A stretch of DNA of 41,157 nucleotides from Oscillospiraceae bacterium Zagget12 (GTDB lineage: Bacteria > Bacillota > Clostridia > UBA1381), in contig MSHM01000003.1 of the NCBI GenBank assembly GCA_001941225.1, forward strand, positions 1 through 41,157. Direction: 5' to 3'. The first letter of the stretch is position 1. Each line of letters opens with the position of its first letter. The position numbers and the translations under genes are program-made. The notes under the pieces were generated by a model. It ran no database searches. It was not told the DNA's origin and worked only from the letters and a program-made list of their open reading frames with translations. Of the stretch, positions 2,984 through 30,876 are shown piece by piece.

Positions 2984-3300
2984 AATACCTCCGTCCCCGC
3001 CGACATTCGTGAGATATGTCCCGCCTATATAATAGACCCTACCAAAAATTTAAAGAGAAGGAGCCCGACCGAATGTCGGTTTCCGAAATTCCCTAAGGCA
3101 GCGAAACAGGGGGTATAGAGATTAGTATTTGGTTACCGTCAAATATTCCCTGTCCCGCGATTATCTATTATACATTATATCACAGGTATAGGGGGTACAT
3201 TCAGTAACATTTCGGAACATCTTTTCTGTCACATTGCACAAATCAACTTACTTTGTTTTGTATGTTTTGCACAAACTTAAAAGATTTTGAAATTATGGTA

Positions 3301-4415: not shown

Positions 4416-4828
4416 CTCTTTCTCAAAATTTCCTCCACCGCCCTAAGCGCCTGAGAGTGCAGCCGCCGTTTTACGTGGTATTCGCTGTAGCACATATTCT
4501 CCGCGATTTTTTCCCACGTTTTGCCGTTTATATATTTGGCAATCAGCAGCGTCCTCAGCGCGGCATCGTCAACCTCGCTTATCACGGTCAGGATTTCCCG
4601 CTTGACGGCGTATAATTCATCTATTCTTTTGTCTATCGCCTCGGAATACGCGGCATAGTTTATAAACTTTTTTTCGGTCGTGTTCCCGTTCGATGTCTGT
4701 ACCCTTTCCCCGTCCGCATTCACCGCCGCGCTTGTAGCCTCCGTCAGCGCCCTTTCGCGCCCCTTTCTCAGCTCTCGAATTTCCGCGTCGATATTCCGCG
4801 CCCTAAGCAGCCATTCTTTCGCCGTCAT
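4400..4828 (-). CDS. DUF1492-type phage regulator (RinA/ArpU-like sigma-region-4 fold)
   Basis: A 142-residue protein, MTAKEWLLRARNIDAEIREL..., with the DUF1492 layout: an N-terminal helical coiled coil containing KRIDELYAVKREILTVI and a C-terminal helix-turn-helix, LIAKYINGKTWEKIAENMC followed by SEYHVKRRLHSQAL. Members of this group resemble sigma factor region 4 and usually sit just before the packaging genes, where they are thought to activate late transcription. Its position immediately before the terminase direction fits that role. GGGAGGT lies 5 bases upstream of the ATG at 4828. A predicted rightward small RNA begins in its 5' leader. Confidence 0.85.
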   Translation of the reverse strand: MTAKEWLLRARNIDAEIRELRKGRERALTEATSAAVNADGERVQTSNGNTTEKKFINYAAYSEAIDKRIDELYAVKREILTVISEVDDAALRTLLIAKYINGKTWEKIAENMCYSEYHVKRRLHSQALRAVEEILRKRKEQF

Positions 4829-26366: not shown

Positions 26367-27836
<1,470 letters not shown>

Positions 27837-27880: not shown

Positions 27881-27937
27881 ATTATTTCCCGTATGCGTAT
27901 TATCCTTTAATGTTTCGTCATAAATATGGCTTGACAA

Positions 27938-28370
27938 GAACGGTTGGGAATTTAAAAAAGCCTATATGCAGGACAAAAACGGCAATATATACGAAACTAC
28001 ACTGAATATAGCAAAAGCATATGACGGACGCAAGATATTATACTCTCTTTCAAACACAAAAAAGATAGATGTAGGCGAAGTGTCCTCAACCCGCAAAATG
28101 CAGGAGGGACTCGCACACAGCCATCTATCTTCTGATAACAGTATATCCAATTCCGAGGAAAATGTCAAGTATTCCGCAAAAGAAAATTCGGACGAGGGGA
28201 AAATAACCGCGGATATGTCGGACGAGGAGCGCGCGGAGATACTTAAAAATACGAGTATCAAATTAGCGGAATACACGGGAAACAGCGAGGATTTAAGCGA
28301 AAAAAAAGATTACGCAGCTGCAAAACACATACAGAAAGCAAGCGGGAAAGACTTTAAGAGAATTGGGTGA
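27938..28370 (+). pseudogene. Decayed polyvalent mobile-element protein, segment 1
   Basis: Just after a stop codon the frame reads DKNGWEFKKAYMQDKNGNIY then ETTLNIAKAYDGRKILYSL, the end of a nuclease-like domain (PBECR group) found in MuF-type and polyvalent proteins of clostridial phages and mobile elements. It continues through a 70-nt stem-loop element, the motif ENVKYSAKEN, an acidic stretch and a new domain that begins KKDYAAAKHIQKASGK. Near 28347 the frame changes: the sequence TLRELGDKFGAF continues in the next frame. There is no start region or N-terminal part here, so it is a remnant. Confidence 0.6.
28062..28131. repeat. Stem-loop element E1 (70 nt) in the decayed gene
   Basis: AAGATAGATG pairs with CATCTATCTT across 50 nt, with inner pairing GCGA/TCGC and GTCCTC/GGAGGGAC with small bulges. 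It ends 33 nt before GTCAAGTATT. E2 (29304-29373) is a close copy with the same terminal arms. Confidence 0.8.
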
Positions 28371-29277
28371 TAAGTTCGGAGCGTTTAAGGACTACAGCAA
28401 TGAGAACGTGGAGCTTGATTTTAACTATTCACATAATTCGCTGAATGAGAGCGTTCATAAGCAAGGTAATATATCAAACGATTATTCAGACTTTGCAAAA
28501 ATGCTGTATATATTTGACGATGTTGTAAACAATGCCGTGCCGATTGCAGTGAACACGGATAAATACACGGGTACAAAAAAAGAAAATCAAAATCTTAAAT
28601 ATGATTATGTGTTGCTTAGCGCGTTTGAGGACGGAAACAATATTGTTCCGGTAGAGTTTCATATAAAGGAATTTAACGAAAATTACAGCAAGGAAAACAA
28701 GCTCTATGTAAGCATTACATTGGGCAAAATAAAATCAGAAGGTACGGTCTTGGCACAGTCCACCGACCAAATGAATGGGCAACAGAGTAGTACTCGCGTA
28801 TCTTCTGATGAAATAAGTATACCAGATTTGTTAAAGGAAGTCAACCCCGAATACGGAAATTTTTACAAATATATTCCGTCGGAGCTACTGAGCGATAAAC
28901 AGAACGCGTCAAAAGGCGTCGCGGTTAAGGACGAGGACTACAGATTGAAGGTGCTGCGCGGCGAGGACGTTTCGGATATGCTCAAAGCGAAAGCCGCCGA
29001 AAACGGATACAGTGCGGACGGCGAGGACAATAGTAAAACGCTTGACGTTACGTATGACGATTACGGCAAGGTAGCATATGATGTAACAAAAATAGAAGAG
29101 GTTTCGTCTACGGGAAGTCGCCAAAGCGGCGAAGACACCCATATCAACTACGAAACCTCTTCTACAGATAATATATCCGATTCAGGCGAAAATGTCAAGT
29201 ATTCCGCAAAAGAAAATGCGGACACGAGCGTTCCGGCAACGGCGGGTAAAGCCGACCGGTACAAAGCAGTTTTATGA
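28363..29277 (+). pseudogene. Decayed polyvalent mobile-element protein, segment 2
   Basis: This frame begins within GDKFGAFKDYSNENVELDFN and continues with SHNSLNESVHKQGNISNDYS, DYVLLSAFEDGNNIVPVEFH and ISIPDLLKEVNPEYGNFYKY, then IPSELLSDKQ. I recall this order from C-terminal regions of polyvalent phage proteins in gut Clostridia. It then passes through stem-loop element E3 and the motif ENVKYSAKENAD and stops at 29277. The possible start at 28363 has no ribosome site and lies beyond a frameshift, so it is probably not independently expressed. Confidence 0.6.
29095..29162. repeat. Stem-loop element E3 (68 nt)
   Basis: GAAGAGGTTTCGT pairs perfectly with ACGAAACCTCTTC over 13 bp; an inner stem TCGCC/GGCGA forms a second tier. 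It lies 32 nt before GTCAAGTATT. The arms are unrelated in sequence to E1 and E2. Confidence 0.85.
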
Positions 29278-29627
29278 TATTATACGTTTTGTCAAACACA
29301 AAAAAGATAGATGTAGGCGACGTGTCCTCAACCTGCAAAACGCAGGAGGGACTCGCACACAACCATCTATCTTCTGATAACAGTGTATCAGATTCTGGCG
29401 AAAATGTCAAGTATTTCGCTTATAAAACAAAAGCGGCAAATCAGGAGCCGAATGGAAATCCCCCTCAGCACAACGTCCGAAACGTCACTGATACTGCCGC
29501 AGCGGCACAGCAGACGAGAGATGTACAAGCCCCTACTCGCAACGTCCGAAACGTTTCTGCCGGTACCGCTTATAGCGATAATATATCACAAAATAACGGC
29601 GGTGTCAATAGCGCATTAACCGGATAA
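29274..29627 (+). pseudogene. Decayed polyvalent mobile-element protein, segment 3
   Basis: A second copy of the SNTKKIDVG..SST..TQEGLAH segment, then ENVKYFAYKTKAANQ and a repetitive tail with HNVRNV and TRNVRNV. It begins by copying only the last few residues of the nuclease-like domain, so it is a partial duplication. The tail carries two copies of CAACGTCCGAAACGT exactly 69 bp apart (29471 and 29540), which keeps frame. No ribosome site. Confidence 0.5.
29304..29373. repeat. Stem-loop element E2 (70 nt)
   Basis: A near copy of E1 with the same AAGATAGATG/CATCTATCTT arms and a better inner hairpin CCTGC-AAAAC-GCAGG. It ends 33 nt before GTCAAGTATT. Confidence 0.8.
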
Positions 29628-29820
29628 AAACGGCAAAAGCACCGTAAAATATACAAAAAACAATGAGGATATACATCAGCCGGCACAGTCCGGGCTCCGA
29701 TCGCCCGGGGCACCGAGTGATGATACCCTCATTAACTATAATATACCAGATGATGCCGAAAAAGTCAAGTATTCTATGAAAGAAAATGCGGACACGGAAA
29801 ATGCAAGAGCCGCGCATAGG
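29628..29820 (+). pseudogene. Decayed polyvalent mobile-element protein, segment 4
   Basis: A short piece reading NGKSTVKYTKNNEDIHQPAQ, then after the stem-loop DTLINYNIPDDAEKVKYSMK and ENADTENARAAH, ending in a stop near 29820. It repeats the VKYSxKENAD motif a fourth time after another stem-loop element. It has no start and lies tail to tail with the nagZ-like gene. Confidence 0.45.
29662..29733. repeat. Stem-loop element E4 (72 nt)
   Basis: AATGAGG pairs with CCTCATT, then ATCA with TGAT, and an inner CCGGGC/GCCCGG stem. It ends 31 nt before GTCAAGTATT. Arms differ from E1-E3. Confidence 0.7.
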
Positions 29821-29822
29821 TA

Positions 29823-30216
29823 TCACATAAGTCCTTTTAAGCGTAATATATGCTCCACGGCGTTATTAAGCGTTTCCTCGCTTATTTCGCCGCTTTTTAC
29901 CGCGTCAAGAATCTGATTAAACGCCGTAATGTAGTCCGTGGTTATAAGCAAATCATTGCCGGCGTTCACCGCCTTCACGTAGACGTTTTCCACGTCGGCG
30001 ACGGCGCCCATCGCAATATCGTCCGTCATTATAACTCCGTCAAAACCAAGCTCGTTTCTGAGTATATCGTGAACCGCGGGCGAAAGCGACGCGGGATTTT
30101 CACTGTCAAGACCTTTTACGGTGTTATGCGACACAAGCACGCAGCTCGCGCCCGCGTCAATGCCCGCCTTGAACGGAACAAAATCGGTATTTCTTATATC
30201 CTCGGCGCTTTTTTTC
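29823..30216 (-). CDS. NagZ-like GH3 beta-N-acetylglucosaminidase, C-terminal part (after frameshift)
   Basis: This frame continues the GH3 enzyme with SAEDIRNTDFVPFKAGIDAG, ASCVLVSHNTVKGLDSENPA, LSPAVHDILRNELGFDGVIM and TDDIAMGAV, where the Asp in MTDD is the family nucleophile. It ends IEHILRLKG-like at 29823. It joins the N-terminal half only if the A7 run (complement of 30209-30215) is read as A6. An ATG at 30284 in this frame lies in out-of-frame sequence and is not a credible start. Family and motifs are clear; expression as one protein is uncertain. Confidence 0.85.
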
Positions 30217-30876
30217 GGTATACACAGCGCCCTCGTGGCTGTCGCCCTCCGTTTCTCCGTAGCCCGGGAAATGCTTAAGCACACTCCATATACCGGCGTT
30301 GTTCATCGCCGCCACGGTCTGCGCGACAAAATCCGCCGTTTCCTCGTAGCCCTTGCCAAAGCTGCGGTCATATATATAAGCGGAGGTGTCCGTGGCAACG
30401 TCGGCTACCGGCGCGAGATTCATATTGATGCCGAGGCTCAAAAGCAGCTCGGATTTCTCCGCCGCGTCAGCGACAACCGCCTCCATACCGCCCTCATTAT
30501 AGATTTCCTGCGGCGATTTGTATTTTTCCGGAGCAAGGTTGGGATTCGCGCTAACGCGCACGACCGTTCCGCCCTCCTCGTCAACTCCGATTATAAGAGG
30601 TATTTCGCTTTTCGATTGGAATCCCTCTATTTTGCTTATTGCCTCGTCCTTTGTCAAGCCGTCAAAATCGCGTTGGAACATAAGTATTCCGGCGGGATTT
30701 AAGGACATCAGTTCGTCCATGCTCTCCTCCTCGGGACAGCGCACAAATAGGATTTGTCCCACCTTTTCTTCGACGGACATCGTGTCTGTCAACGGTTTTT
30801 CGCTTGCGCCCAAGCCGCACCCCGCCGCGGATAATAATATAATTGCGGCGGCTGTAAGCGATAGTAATTTTTTCAT
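30157..30876 (-). CDS. NagZ-like GH3 beta-N-acetylglucosaminidase lipoprotein, N-terminal part (frameshifted)
   Basis: The reverse frame starts MKKLLSLTAAAIILLSAAGC, a signal peptide with lipobox SAAGC, so the enzyme would be anchored outside the cell. GH3 motifs follow: SVEEKVGQILFVRCPEE, NPAGILMFQRDFDGL, IPLIIGVDEEGGTVVRVS, SLGINMNLAPVADVATD, YIYDRSFGKGYEET and SVLKHFPGYGETEGDSHEGA. After VYTEK an A7 run shifts the frame and the protein would end in unrelated sequence. With A6 it would be a full enzyme of about 350 residues. Such enzymes recycle peptidoglycan or cut N-acetylglucosamine from glycans. Confidence 0.88.
   Translation of the reverse strand: MKKLLSLTAAAIILLSAAGCGLGASEKPLTDTMSVEEKVGQILFVRCPEEESMDELMSLNPAGILMFQRDFDGLTKDEAISKIEGFQSKSEIPLIIGVDEEGGTVVRVSANPNLAPEKYKSPQEIYNEGGMEAVVADAAEKSELLLSLGINMNLAPVADVATDTSAYIYDRSFGKGYEETADFVAQTVAAMNNAGIWSVLKHFPGYGETEGDSHEGAVYTEKKRRGYKKYRFCSVQGGH

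Follow-up and report, generated by a model that had tools for sequence, protein, structure and literature searches.

The window analysed here, a stretch of 41,157 nucleotides (nt) from contig MSHM01000003.1 of Oscillospiraceae bacterium Zagget12, contains a decayed gene for a polyvalent protein that is overlaid by a series of long hairpins. The series lies between two genes that we take, from their translations, to encode an IMP dehydrogenase (guaB-like, 26370-27836) and a beta-N-acetylhexosaminidase (nagZ-like, about 29823-30876). All four two-tier hairpins described in the initial annotation (E1, E3, E2 and E4 in order of position) are present, with fold z-scores against dinucleotide shuffles of -3.7, -7.2, -5.4 and -5.4, respectively, and 0/200 shuffles of each are as stable. 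The count of four fell short, as a stem scan revealed a fifth hairpin and a promoter scan indicated a weaker sixth element, which brings the total in the window to six. We propose that the region is an array of six hairpin RNA genes, laid over the decayed polyvalent gene and enclosed by the guaB- and nagZ-like genes (Table 1).

E1 and E2 share their arms because a 144-nt stretch that contains the hairpin occurs twice, at 28034-28177 and 29276-29419, with 90% identity. The repeat starts 28 nt before the hairpin and ends just beyond the -35 box, and the copied stretch of E2 barely exceeds its predicted transcription unit. The arms of E3 and E4 have no relation to those of E1 and E2, in agreement with the earlier description. 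The outer stem of E3 is slightly longer than had been described, being a perfect stem of 15 base pairs (29093-29107 with 29150-29164).

Predicted transcription units on the opposite strand

In a comparison set of 23 hairpins from 14 genomes or contigs, taken with their flanks, GTCAA and a TATA[CT]C box are found on the 3' side of the hairpin, and these are the complements of TTGAC and of TATA-type hexamers. The predicted unit on the other strand consists of a sigma-A-type promoter (TTGACA/T, a 17-nt spacer and TATAcT), followed by the hairpin and by T-rich DNA. TTGAC[AT] occurs in 22 of the 23 elements, the exception being L088 with its poor -35 box. For 23/23 the spacer that scores best has 17 nt, under a score that mildly favoured this length, and the gap between promoter and hairpin measures 3-11 nt. 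At least five T are present among the first eight tail bases in 22/23 elements (none in L015:401). The constant distance from hairpin to GTCAAG that had drawn attention to the region is genuine, and it is fixed because GTCAA belongs to the -35 box on the other strand.

A promoter scan of positions 27900-29900 returned nine promoter-like sites, compared with a mean of 3.9 (standard deviation (sd) 1.8) in shuffles. The six best sites are all on the minus strand, have a 17-nt spacer, and fall one to each element. Each element would be a self-contained gene for a small RNA (sRNA), predicted at about 60-80 nt, that lies opposite the polyvalent gene and comprises a promoter, a two-tier hairpin RNA and a T-rich end, by which the hairpin would serve as its own terminator. 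The idea of an in-frame palindromic or mobile element gave way on this evidence, which favours sRNA genes in antisense orientation, each having a promoter and a terminator; a mobile palindrome, a bypass element and an attC-like site were dropped as candidates once the opposite-strand boxes and T-rich tails appeared.

The combination of promoter, hairpin and T-rich tail was then used as a finder that allowed spacers of 16-18 nt. Sixty unrelated loci (553,618 bases) gave 9 matches, with promoters at 9-10 of 12 consensus positions and spacers of 16, 17 and 18 nt in 4, 1 and 4 cases. From 47 polyvalent sources (261,548 bases, some overlapping) 66 matches were obtained, 51 of them distinct, and 47/51 have the 17-nt spacer. 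The sixth hairpin of the window was missed by this finder.

Partner domains and RNA structure

Homologous elements lie antisense after LPD3-, MuF_C- and related polyvalent domains in Clostridia-type genomes. The partner domains match PF18819 or PF18798, GWEF being the working label of this analysis for a further domain type, and they sit in mostly long frames of up to about 3,000 amino acids (aa). The long open genes of these relatives retain the hairpins, rather than presenting ordinary coding sequence devoid of pairing, and the elements are placed at module ends of polyvalent proteins, as had been anticipated from the window.

Forty-two domain rows were chosen by protein homology alone, and an element was counted where a hairpin started between -30 and +200 nt from the domain end. 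An antisense element is present at 26/42 rows, with a 17-nt spacer in 26/26. By type, it is found at 10/16 GWEF-type, 8/11 LPD3, 6/13 MuF_C and 2/2 rows of a second MuF_C type. The same segments yielded 0/42 on the sense strand and 15/840 in shuffles. By comparison, ART-PolyVal domains, which belong to the same kind of protein, have an element at 0/14 rows; these are 14 of 18 PF18760 matches, L220, L221, L224 and L225 being omitted as below the family cut-off, and a single ART domain is split between L213 and L223. The difference between the two sets has a Fisher p of 2.7e-5, or 3.4e-6 without L120-L124, five weak rows that look like false, unrelated domain matches; both values count related rows apart, some of them on common contigs (L085/L095, L092/L119, L094/L116 and L108/L111/L112 among the 42).

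The fold is kept while the sequence changes, with strong covariation in the outer stems. Among eight MuF_C-type RNAs, including E4 of the window, double changes occur at 13/16 predicted pairs, and among ten GWEF-type RNAs at 3/9. RNAalifold found no pairs in a mixed alignment of 17 RNAs (A9), which is attributed to slipped outer stems. Two covariance models were built, R1 from the family alignment of the eight MuF_C-type RNAs and R2 from a model-fitted alignment. Forty elements fitted to R1 have 89.6% of cells paired and a covariation of 0.611, against 0.182 (sd 0.016) for shuffled and at most 0.171 for slid alignments, and 75 R2 matches reach 0.791, against 0.220 (sd 0.015) and at most 0.196; both alignments were fitted to structure and are hence biased towards pairing.

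In some families, a core is better preserved than the outer stem. In seven GWEF-type RNAs the core identity is 0.89 and 0.87, versus 0.48 and 0.53 in the outer arms. In 13 MuF_C-type RNAs a 7-nt loop sits on a covarying stem and reads AATTGGA in nine, the others being GATCGGA, AATTGGT and AATTGCA (twice). Members of both families were partly recognised by these cores. The MuF_C core doubles as protein (GLQLP) in open genes, and copies without a long frame still have it. A search of the window stretch against 4227 Rfam families at E up to 5 returned only two sub-threshold snoRNA models, and nine loci at the gathering threshold matched only RNase P.

The position just before codons for VKYSxKEN, emphasised in the initial annotation, holds only locally; in relatives, the hairpin is bracketed by the end of a domain and by the TATA/TGTCAA boxes. 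A covariance-model search of the kind that had been suggested produced many matches with compensatory changes, VKYSxKEN dropping out as a constant landmark. The codon pattern was rejected as a key landmark after it appeared at 49 loci on viral contigs, in short or unrelated frames that we read as chance; its 14 loci in genomes include three polyvalent genes (L067, L072 of Ruminococcus sp. FMBCY1, and L076). As a separate observation, an ART module that lies between VKYSAKEN and VRYSMKEG in L014 (1681-2260) is missing from the window at 28165-28230, and modules may be lost between such KYSxKE repeats.

Phage alleles and toxin-free arrays

In tblastn searches against named phages, the LPD3-type, GWEF-type and second MuF_C type domains were unmatched, and blastn of the window stretch gave no match. 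Scans of viral contigs for relatives returned two loci of the second MuF_C type, one of MuF_C and none of LPD3. The clostridial-type MuF_C domain L113 has matches of 36-42% identity in 13 named records of Escherichia coli phages, and in two of these records the protein is annotated as LPD5. In PhiR12_3 and PhiR5_2 the match lies within an 8.4-kb coding sequence, and the domain is succeeded by an antisense hairpin whose core is GGGCAATTG. The six phage-type copies score 39-50 bits with R1, and these two phages score 24 and 16 bits with R2.

The genes of PhiR12_3 and PhiR5_2 are 0.80-1.00 identical per 60-nt interval, falling to 0.40-0.58 in the block formed by MuF_C and the hairpin, and identity returns between the hairpin and the -10 box. 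Four prophage copies group with PhiR12_3, and PhiR5_2 is distinct from all five in this block. The domain and the predicted RNA thus vary together under a common predicted promoter. Since the hairpin changes with the upstream domain while the downstream promoter stays, the hairpin looks like cargo and not like the agent of exchange in this one E. coli case. The earlier suggestion of module swapping is borne out as regards exchange beside the hairpins, but not as regards the hairpin driving it. The PhiR5_2 hairpin alone has matches in 117/5,426 E. coli genomes; among 60 matches listed, five are in a gene annotated as LPD38 and 55 are unannotated.

One of these unannotated places, in an E. coli island (L229), contains five tandem hairpins behind one predicted promoter (9 of 12 consensus positions), with related CAA[CT]TG loops and differing outer stems. 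The identity of hairpin 1 with the PhiR5_2 allele is 0.91, and that of hairpin 2 with PhiR12_3-type alleles is 0.89-0.92; for hairpins 3-5 it does not exceed 0.83 with any of the six copies used in the comparison. The 13 phage records matched by L113 also match some part of this array. Hairpin 4 alone has matches in 131/5,426 E. coli genomes; among 40 matches listed, 35 are unannotated and five, of 38 nt only, lie in LPD38/LPD5 genes.

The two E. coli orphan places retrieved (L229 1235-4265 and L228 3125-4312) lie in islands with PerC-family, ProQ/FinO-family and ssb genes, with primase or DUF927 genes nearby. They look satellite-like, and the presence of a ProQ/FinO RNA chaperone beside an RNA array may not be accidental. 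Identity of the array with the sRNA Esr41 was considered and rejected: the available text of PMC5286369 places Esr41 in SpLE1 near iha and ter, and the O157:H7 array stands beside PerC, ProQ/FinO, ssb and primase genes.

Those relatives that carry a name belong to Bacillota. In Clostridia, R2 matches with E up to 0.01 occur in 177/391 genomes, the E-values being rough and weak matches possibly due to chance. At least 105 places score below 1e-4, some of them R2 training sequences. The best eight R2 places in the genome of the window are E1, E2, E3, E4, the fifth hairpin and three on contig C9. On that contig, two elements in L198 (G000:C9:10000-18000; 4444-4549 and 4621-4738, minus strand) adjoin a remnant of the domain type of the fifth hairpin (L004), and L197 (G000:C9:66500-73000) has a 47-bit element at 3099-3213 on the plus strand with no antisense frame above 54 aa.

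Many copies occur without the toxin-like module. An antisense frame of 150 aa is absent from 35 of 99 distinct elements (104 were collected, 36 of them frameless, before five places counted twice were removed); one of the 35 is cut by a contig end, four are the window's own, and the collected loci were partly picked for clusters, which makes the fraction no estimate of orphan frequency. Thirty of the 35 still agree with the promoter consensus at 10-11 of 12 positions; the fold z has a median of -3.78. Tandem runs comprise three elements in L188 (103-550, at the contig start), eight in L191 (3004-5174) and seven in L190 (7659-8738), several of the last still within long frames. The L188 run adjoins genes for a HemN-type radical SAM protein and LepA, the L191 run has a DUF819 gene on one side and, on the other, genes for a PALP/ACT enzyme and then a Mur ligase, and a pair in L194 adjoins an F420 ligase. 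Toxin-free tandem copies are thus found next to chromosomal genes, an arrangement that the window fits.

By eye, a CGTTTCGG[AG]CG or similar core is common to a further group of elements, in L189 3343-3464, L190 8368-8491, L191 3244-3337, L201 3397-3510 and the window at 29518-29608. At the start of its contig, L014 36-512 has seven tandem copies of a unit of ~66 nt with GGGGCGCG..CGCGCCCC ends.

Table 1. Hairpin elements, predicted promoters and gene remnants in the window (E-values and bit scores from covariance-model searches).
Feature	Position	Strand	Remarks
GWEF-type domain C-terminus remnant, upstream of E1	27918..28070	+	one TAA within the match
T-rich tail of E1	about 28052-28061	-	after the hairpin on the minus strand
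E1, predicted sRNA hairpin, GWEF-domain type	28060..28133	-	R2 E 1.8e-12, but E1 is in the R2 training set
E1 predicted promoter, TTGACA-17-TATACT	28140..28168	-	
Decayed polyvalent gene, remaining open frame, 304 aa	28363..29277	+	homologous to part of the 1202-aa frame of L014
Fifth hairpin, after YVSITLGKIK stretch of a second domain type	28734..28809	-	R2 E 6.5e-7; the training set contains a homologue but not this copy itself
Fifth-hairpin predicted promoter, TTGACT-17-TATACT	28816..28844	-	
E3, predicted sRNA hairpin and T-rich tail	29093..29164	-	in R2 training set
E3 predicted promoter, TTGACA-17-TATATT	29170..29198	-	
E2, second GWEF-type hairpin	29302..29375	-	in R2 training set
E2 predicted promoter, TTGACA-17-TACACT	29382..29410	-	
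Sixth hairpin, imperfect, approximate limits; resembles CGTTTCGGACG-core group	29501..29570	-	24 bits, E 0.05
Sixth-element predicted promoter, TTGACA-17-TATATT	29580..29608	-	
E4, MuF_C-type hairpin, inner core GGGC-GATCGGA-GCCC	29661..29734	-	in R2 training set
E4 predicted promoter, TTGACT-17-TATATT	29740..29768	-	

A candidate RNA immunity to polyvalent-protein modules

MuF-C is classed as a PBECR domain, for which a metal-independent ribonuclease (RNase) fold is predicted in the available text of PMC5512222. A fold of this kind is likewise suggested for the LPD3- and GWEF-type domains, judged by eye from their layout. Because the predicted RNA follows MuF_C/LPD3-type domains and not ART domains, varies with the domain, and is kept without the domain in arrays, an RNA immunity partner is the best explanation. 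We consider it nearly an even chance that the hairpins are immunity genes, encoding RNA antitoxins antisense to RNase-type modules and gathered into arrays. From these sequence comparisons we infer transcription of the hairpin RNAs, RNase activity of the modules, its direct inhibition by the RNA, and immunity of the carrier. The data suggest an RNA-based immunity to polyvalent-protein modules that is as yet undescribed; among the open-licence PubMed Central (PMC) papers listed by literature searches, no title or opening of an abstract describes such hairpin RNA genes.

The RNA is anticipated to belong to the domain that ends just before the hairpin, be it MuF_C, LPD3 or a relative. A resident element would produce it constitutively, and the RNA would neutralise the domain by binding, using a family-specific core (in one MuF_C group, the AAUUGGA loop), with the fast-changing outer stem setting allele specificity. 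Toxin and antidote, encoded on opposite strands of one segment, would be swapped as a single cassette, and the toxin-free tandem copies held by chromosomes and islands would constitute an RNA immunity array against incoming modules.

Several observations weigh against this explanation. The terminator scan, which demanded loops of 3-8 nt, flags none of the window hairpins. Sixteen of the 42 domain rows are without an element; the five weak rows L120-L124 are among them, and another, L115, scores 47 bits with the covariance model. Pfam yields no match for the GWEF-type domain, the structure model of this domain is of low quality (mean predicted local distance difference test score, pLDDT, of 58), and the RNase fold described in PMC5512222, as far as its available text goes, covers MuF-C only. 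The predicted phage promoter, TTGCGA-17-TATTTT, is weak, with 8 of 12 consensus positions, and hairpins 2-5 of L229 have no good promoter of their own. The GCGAG core occurs in only 5/10 GWEF-type rows with an element and the AATTGG core in only 3/6 such MuF_C rows; as the latter is translated into GLQLP, part of its conservation may be at the protein level.

The most serious alternative, which we judge less likely, is an antisense regulator. The sRNA would pair with the hairpin of the polyvalent mRNA through a kissing loop and then a duplex, lowering expression of the toxin-bearing protein; orphan copies would silence the mRNA of incoming elements in trans, and stem divergence would provide incompatibility-like specificity. 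The RNA is fully complementary to the mRNA hairpin by construction, antisense copy-control and type I systems typically use hairpin RNAs whose stems diverge, and not all elements have the cores. The identity of about 0.9 over the full length between array hairpins 1 and 2 and the toxin alleles (0.89-0.92) also keeps silencing alive, since pairing with the mRNA would account for it too. Against silencing stand the occurrence of the elements after MuF_C/LPD3-type domains and not after the ART domains of comparable proteins, and the fixed core beside free outer stems in some families, which pairing does not require. Moreover, injection of preformed polyvalent protein has been proposed (PMC5512222, available text), and silencing of an mRNA would not protect a recipient from a protein that arrives preformed. 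What places direct RNA-protein inhibition ahead of silencing is the specificity for certain domains, together with the copies that lack a toxin and the cores that stay fixed in some families.

It is improbable that the sRNA acts elsewhere, whether on mRNAs of the host or of phages or by decoying a host RNase, its neighbourhood to the domains being incidental carriage by mobile elements. Such a role would agree with island-borne E. coli sRNAs that have trans targets (Esr41, in the available text of PMC5286369) and with the two orphan places in islands with a ProQ/FinO-family gene, but the position after one domain class in many genomes and the exchange together with the domain argue against it. 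Still less probable is an element without a transcript, acting in recombination or as a pause or processing hairpin of the sense mRNA, in which the promoter-like boxes are coincidental codons. Modules are indeed lost or exchanged alongside the hairpins, as seen in the absence of the L014 ART module from the window and in the differing E. coli alleles; yet TTGACA-17-TATA boxes and T-rich tails occupy fixed places in the antisense direction only (sense 0/42) and persist where a long frame is lacking. Hardly credible, finally, is the view that these are palindromes arisen by chance or plain coding sequence, for which the conservation of some core codons as protein (GLQLP) could be cited; it is contradicted by the fold z-scores, the covariation and the copies without a long frame, and by the codons CAA TTG CCC, which are common to two E. 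coli phage genes, L113 and L015 despite a domain protein identity of 36-42%.

Among known systems, type III toxin-antitoxin systems (ToxIN, CptIN, TenpIN) use a structured RNA to inhibit an endoribonuclease, with tandem RNA units behind one promoter and an association with phages. The elements described here resemble them in the proposed role of the RNA, in the tandem units behind one predicted promoter of L229, and in the link to phages. They differ in that the RNA is antisense at the 3' end of the domain instead of preceding the toxin gene in the same orientation, in that it is mostly a single hairpin with its own predicted promoter and forms orphan arrays without toxin, and in that the partner is a MuF_C/LPD3-type domain within a giant polyvalent protein and not a free protein of the ToxN/AbiQ type. 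Type I toxin-antitoxin and copy-control RNAs (hok/sok, RNAI, CopA) are small antisense hairpin RNAs with their own promoter and diverging stems, features that are matched here together with complementarity, by position, to a toxin-bearing mRNA. The putative target is, however, neither a small hydrophobic membrane peptide nor a replication leader, and the elements follow one domain class, have a core in some families, and vary with the domain as a block. Integron attC sites also combine a conserved fold with variable sequence at module ends, but the promoter and terminator architecture predicted here would set the hairpins apart.

Orphan copies of immunity genes are known for polymorphic toxins, to which the toxin-free copies would correspond. 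Immunity encoded on the C-terminal side of the toxin module and cassette exchange are further likenesses to polymorphic toxin immunity genes, according to the available text of PMC3482391 and PMC5576092, whereas the agent here would be an RNA antisense to the toxin gene itself. The protein context, the domain shuffling and the predicted RNase activity of PBECR/MuF-C are those of the PBECR/MuF-C/LPD3 polyvalent proteins treated in PMC5512222, the available text of which mentions no antisense RNA or RNA hairpin gene.

In a wider formulation, which we put at somewhat below an even chance, phages and mobile elements that inject polyvalent proteins would protect themselves by RNA immunity genes on the reverse strand of each RNase-type module, toxin and antidote would form exchangeable cassettes on two strands, and bacteria and satellite-like islands would gather the antidotes into allele-specific arrays, from Clostridia to E. 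coli. The occurrence in PhiR5_2, whose record names E. coli K-12 MG1655 as host, makes toxicity, rescue and specificity testable with two plasmids. If this interpretation holds, the hairpins would represent an RNA-based counterpart of orphan immunity genes and would add a class of sRNA genes that regularly accompanies one class of toxin-like modules of phages. They could account for the tolerance of such modules by their carriers, and would provide a case of RNA arrays corresponding to toxin alleles in circulation.

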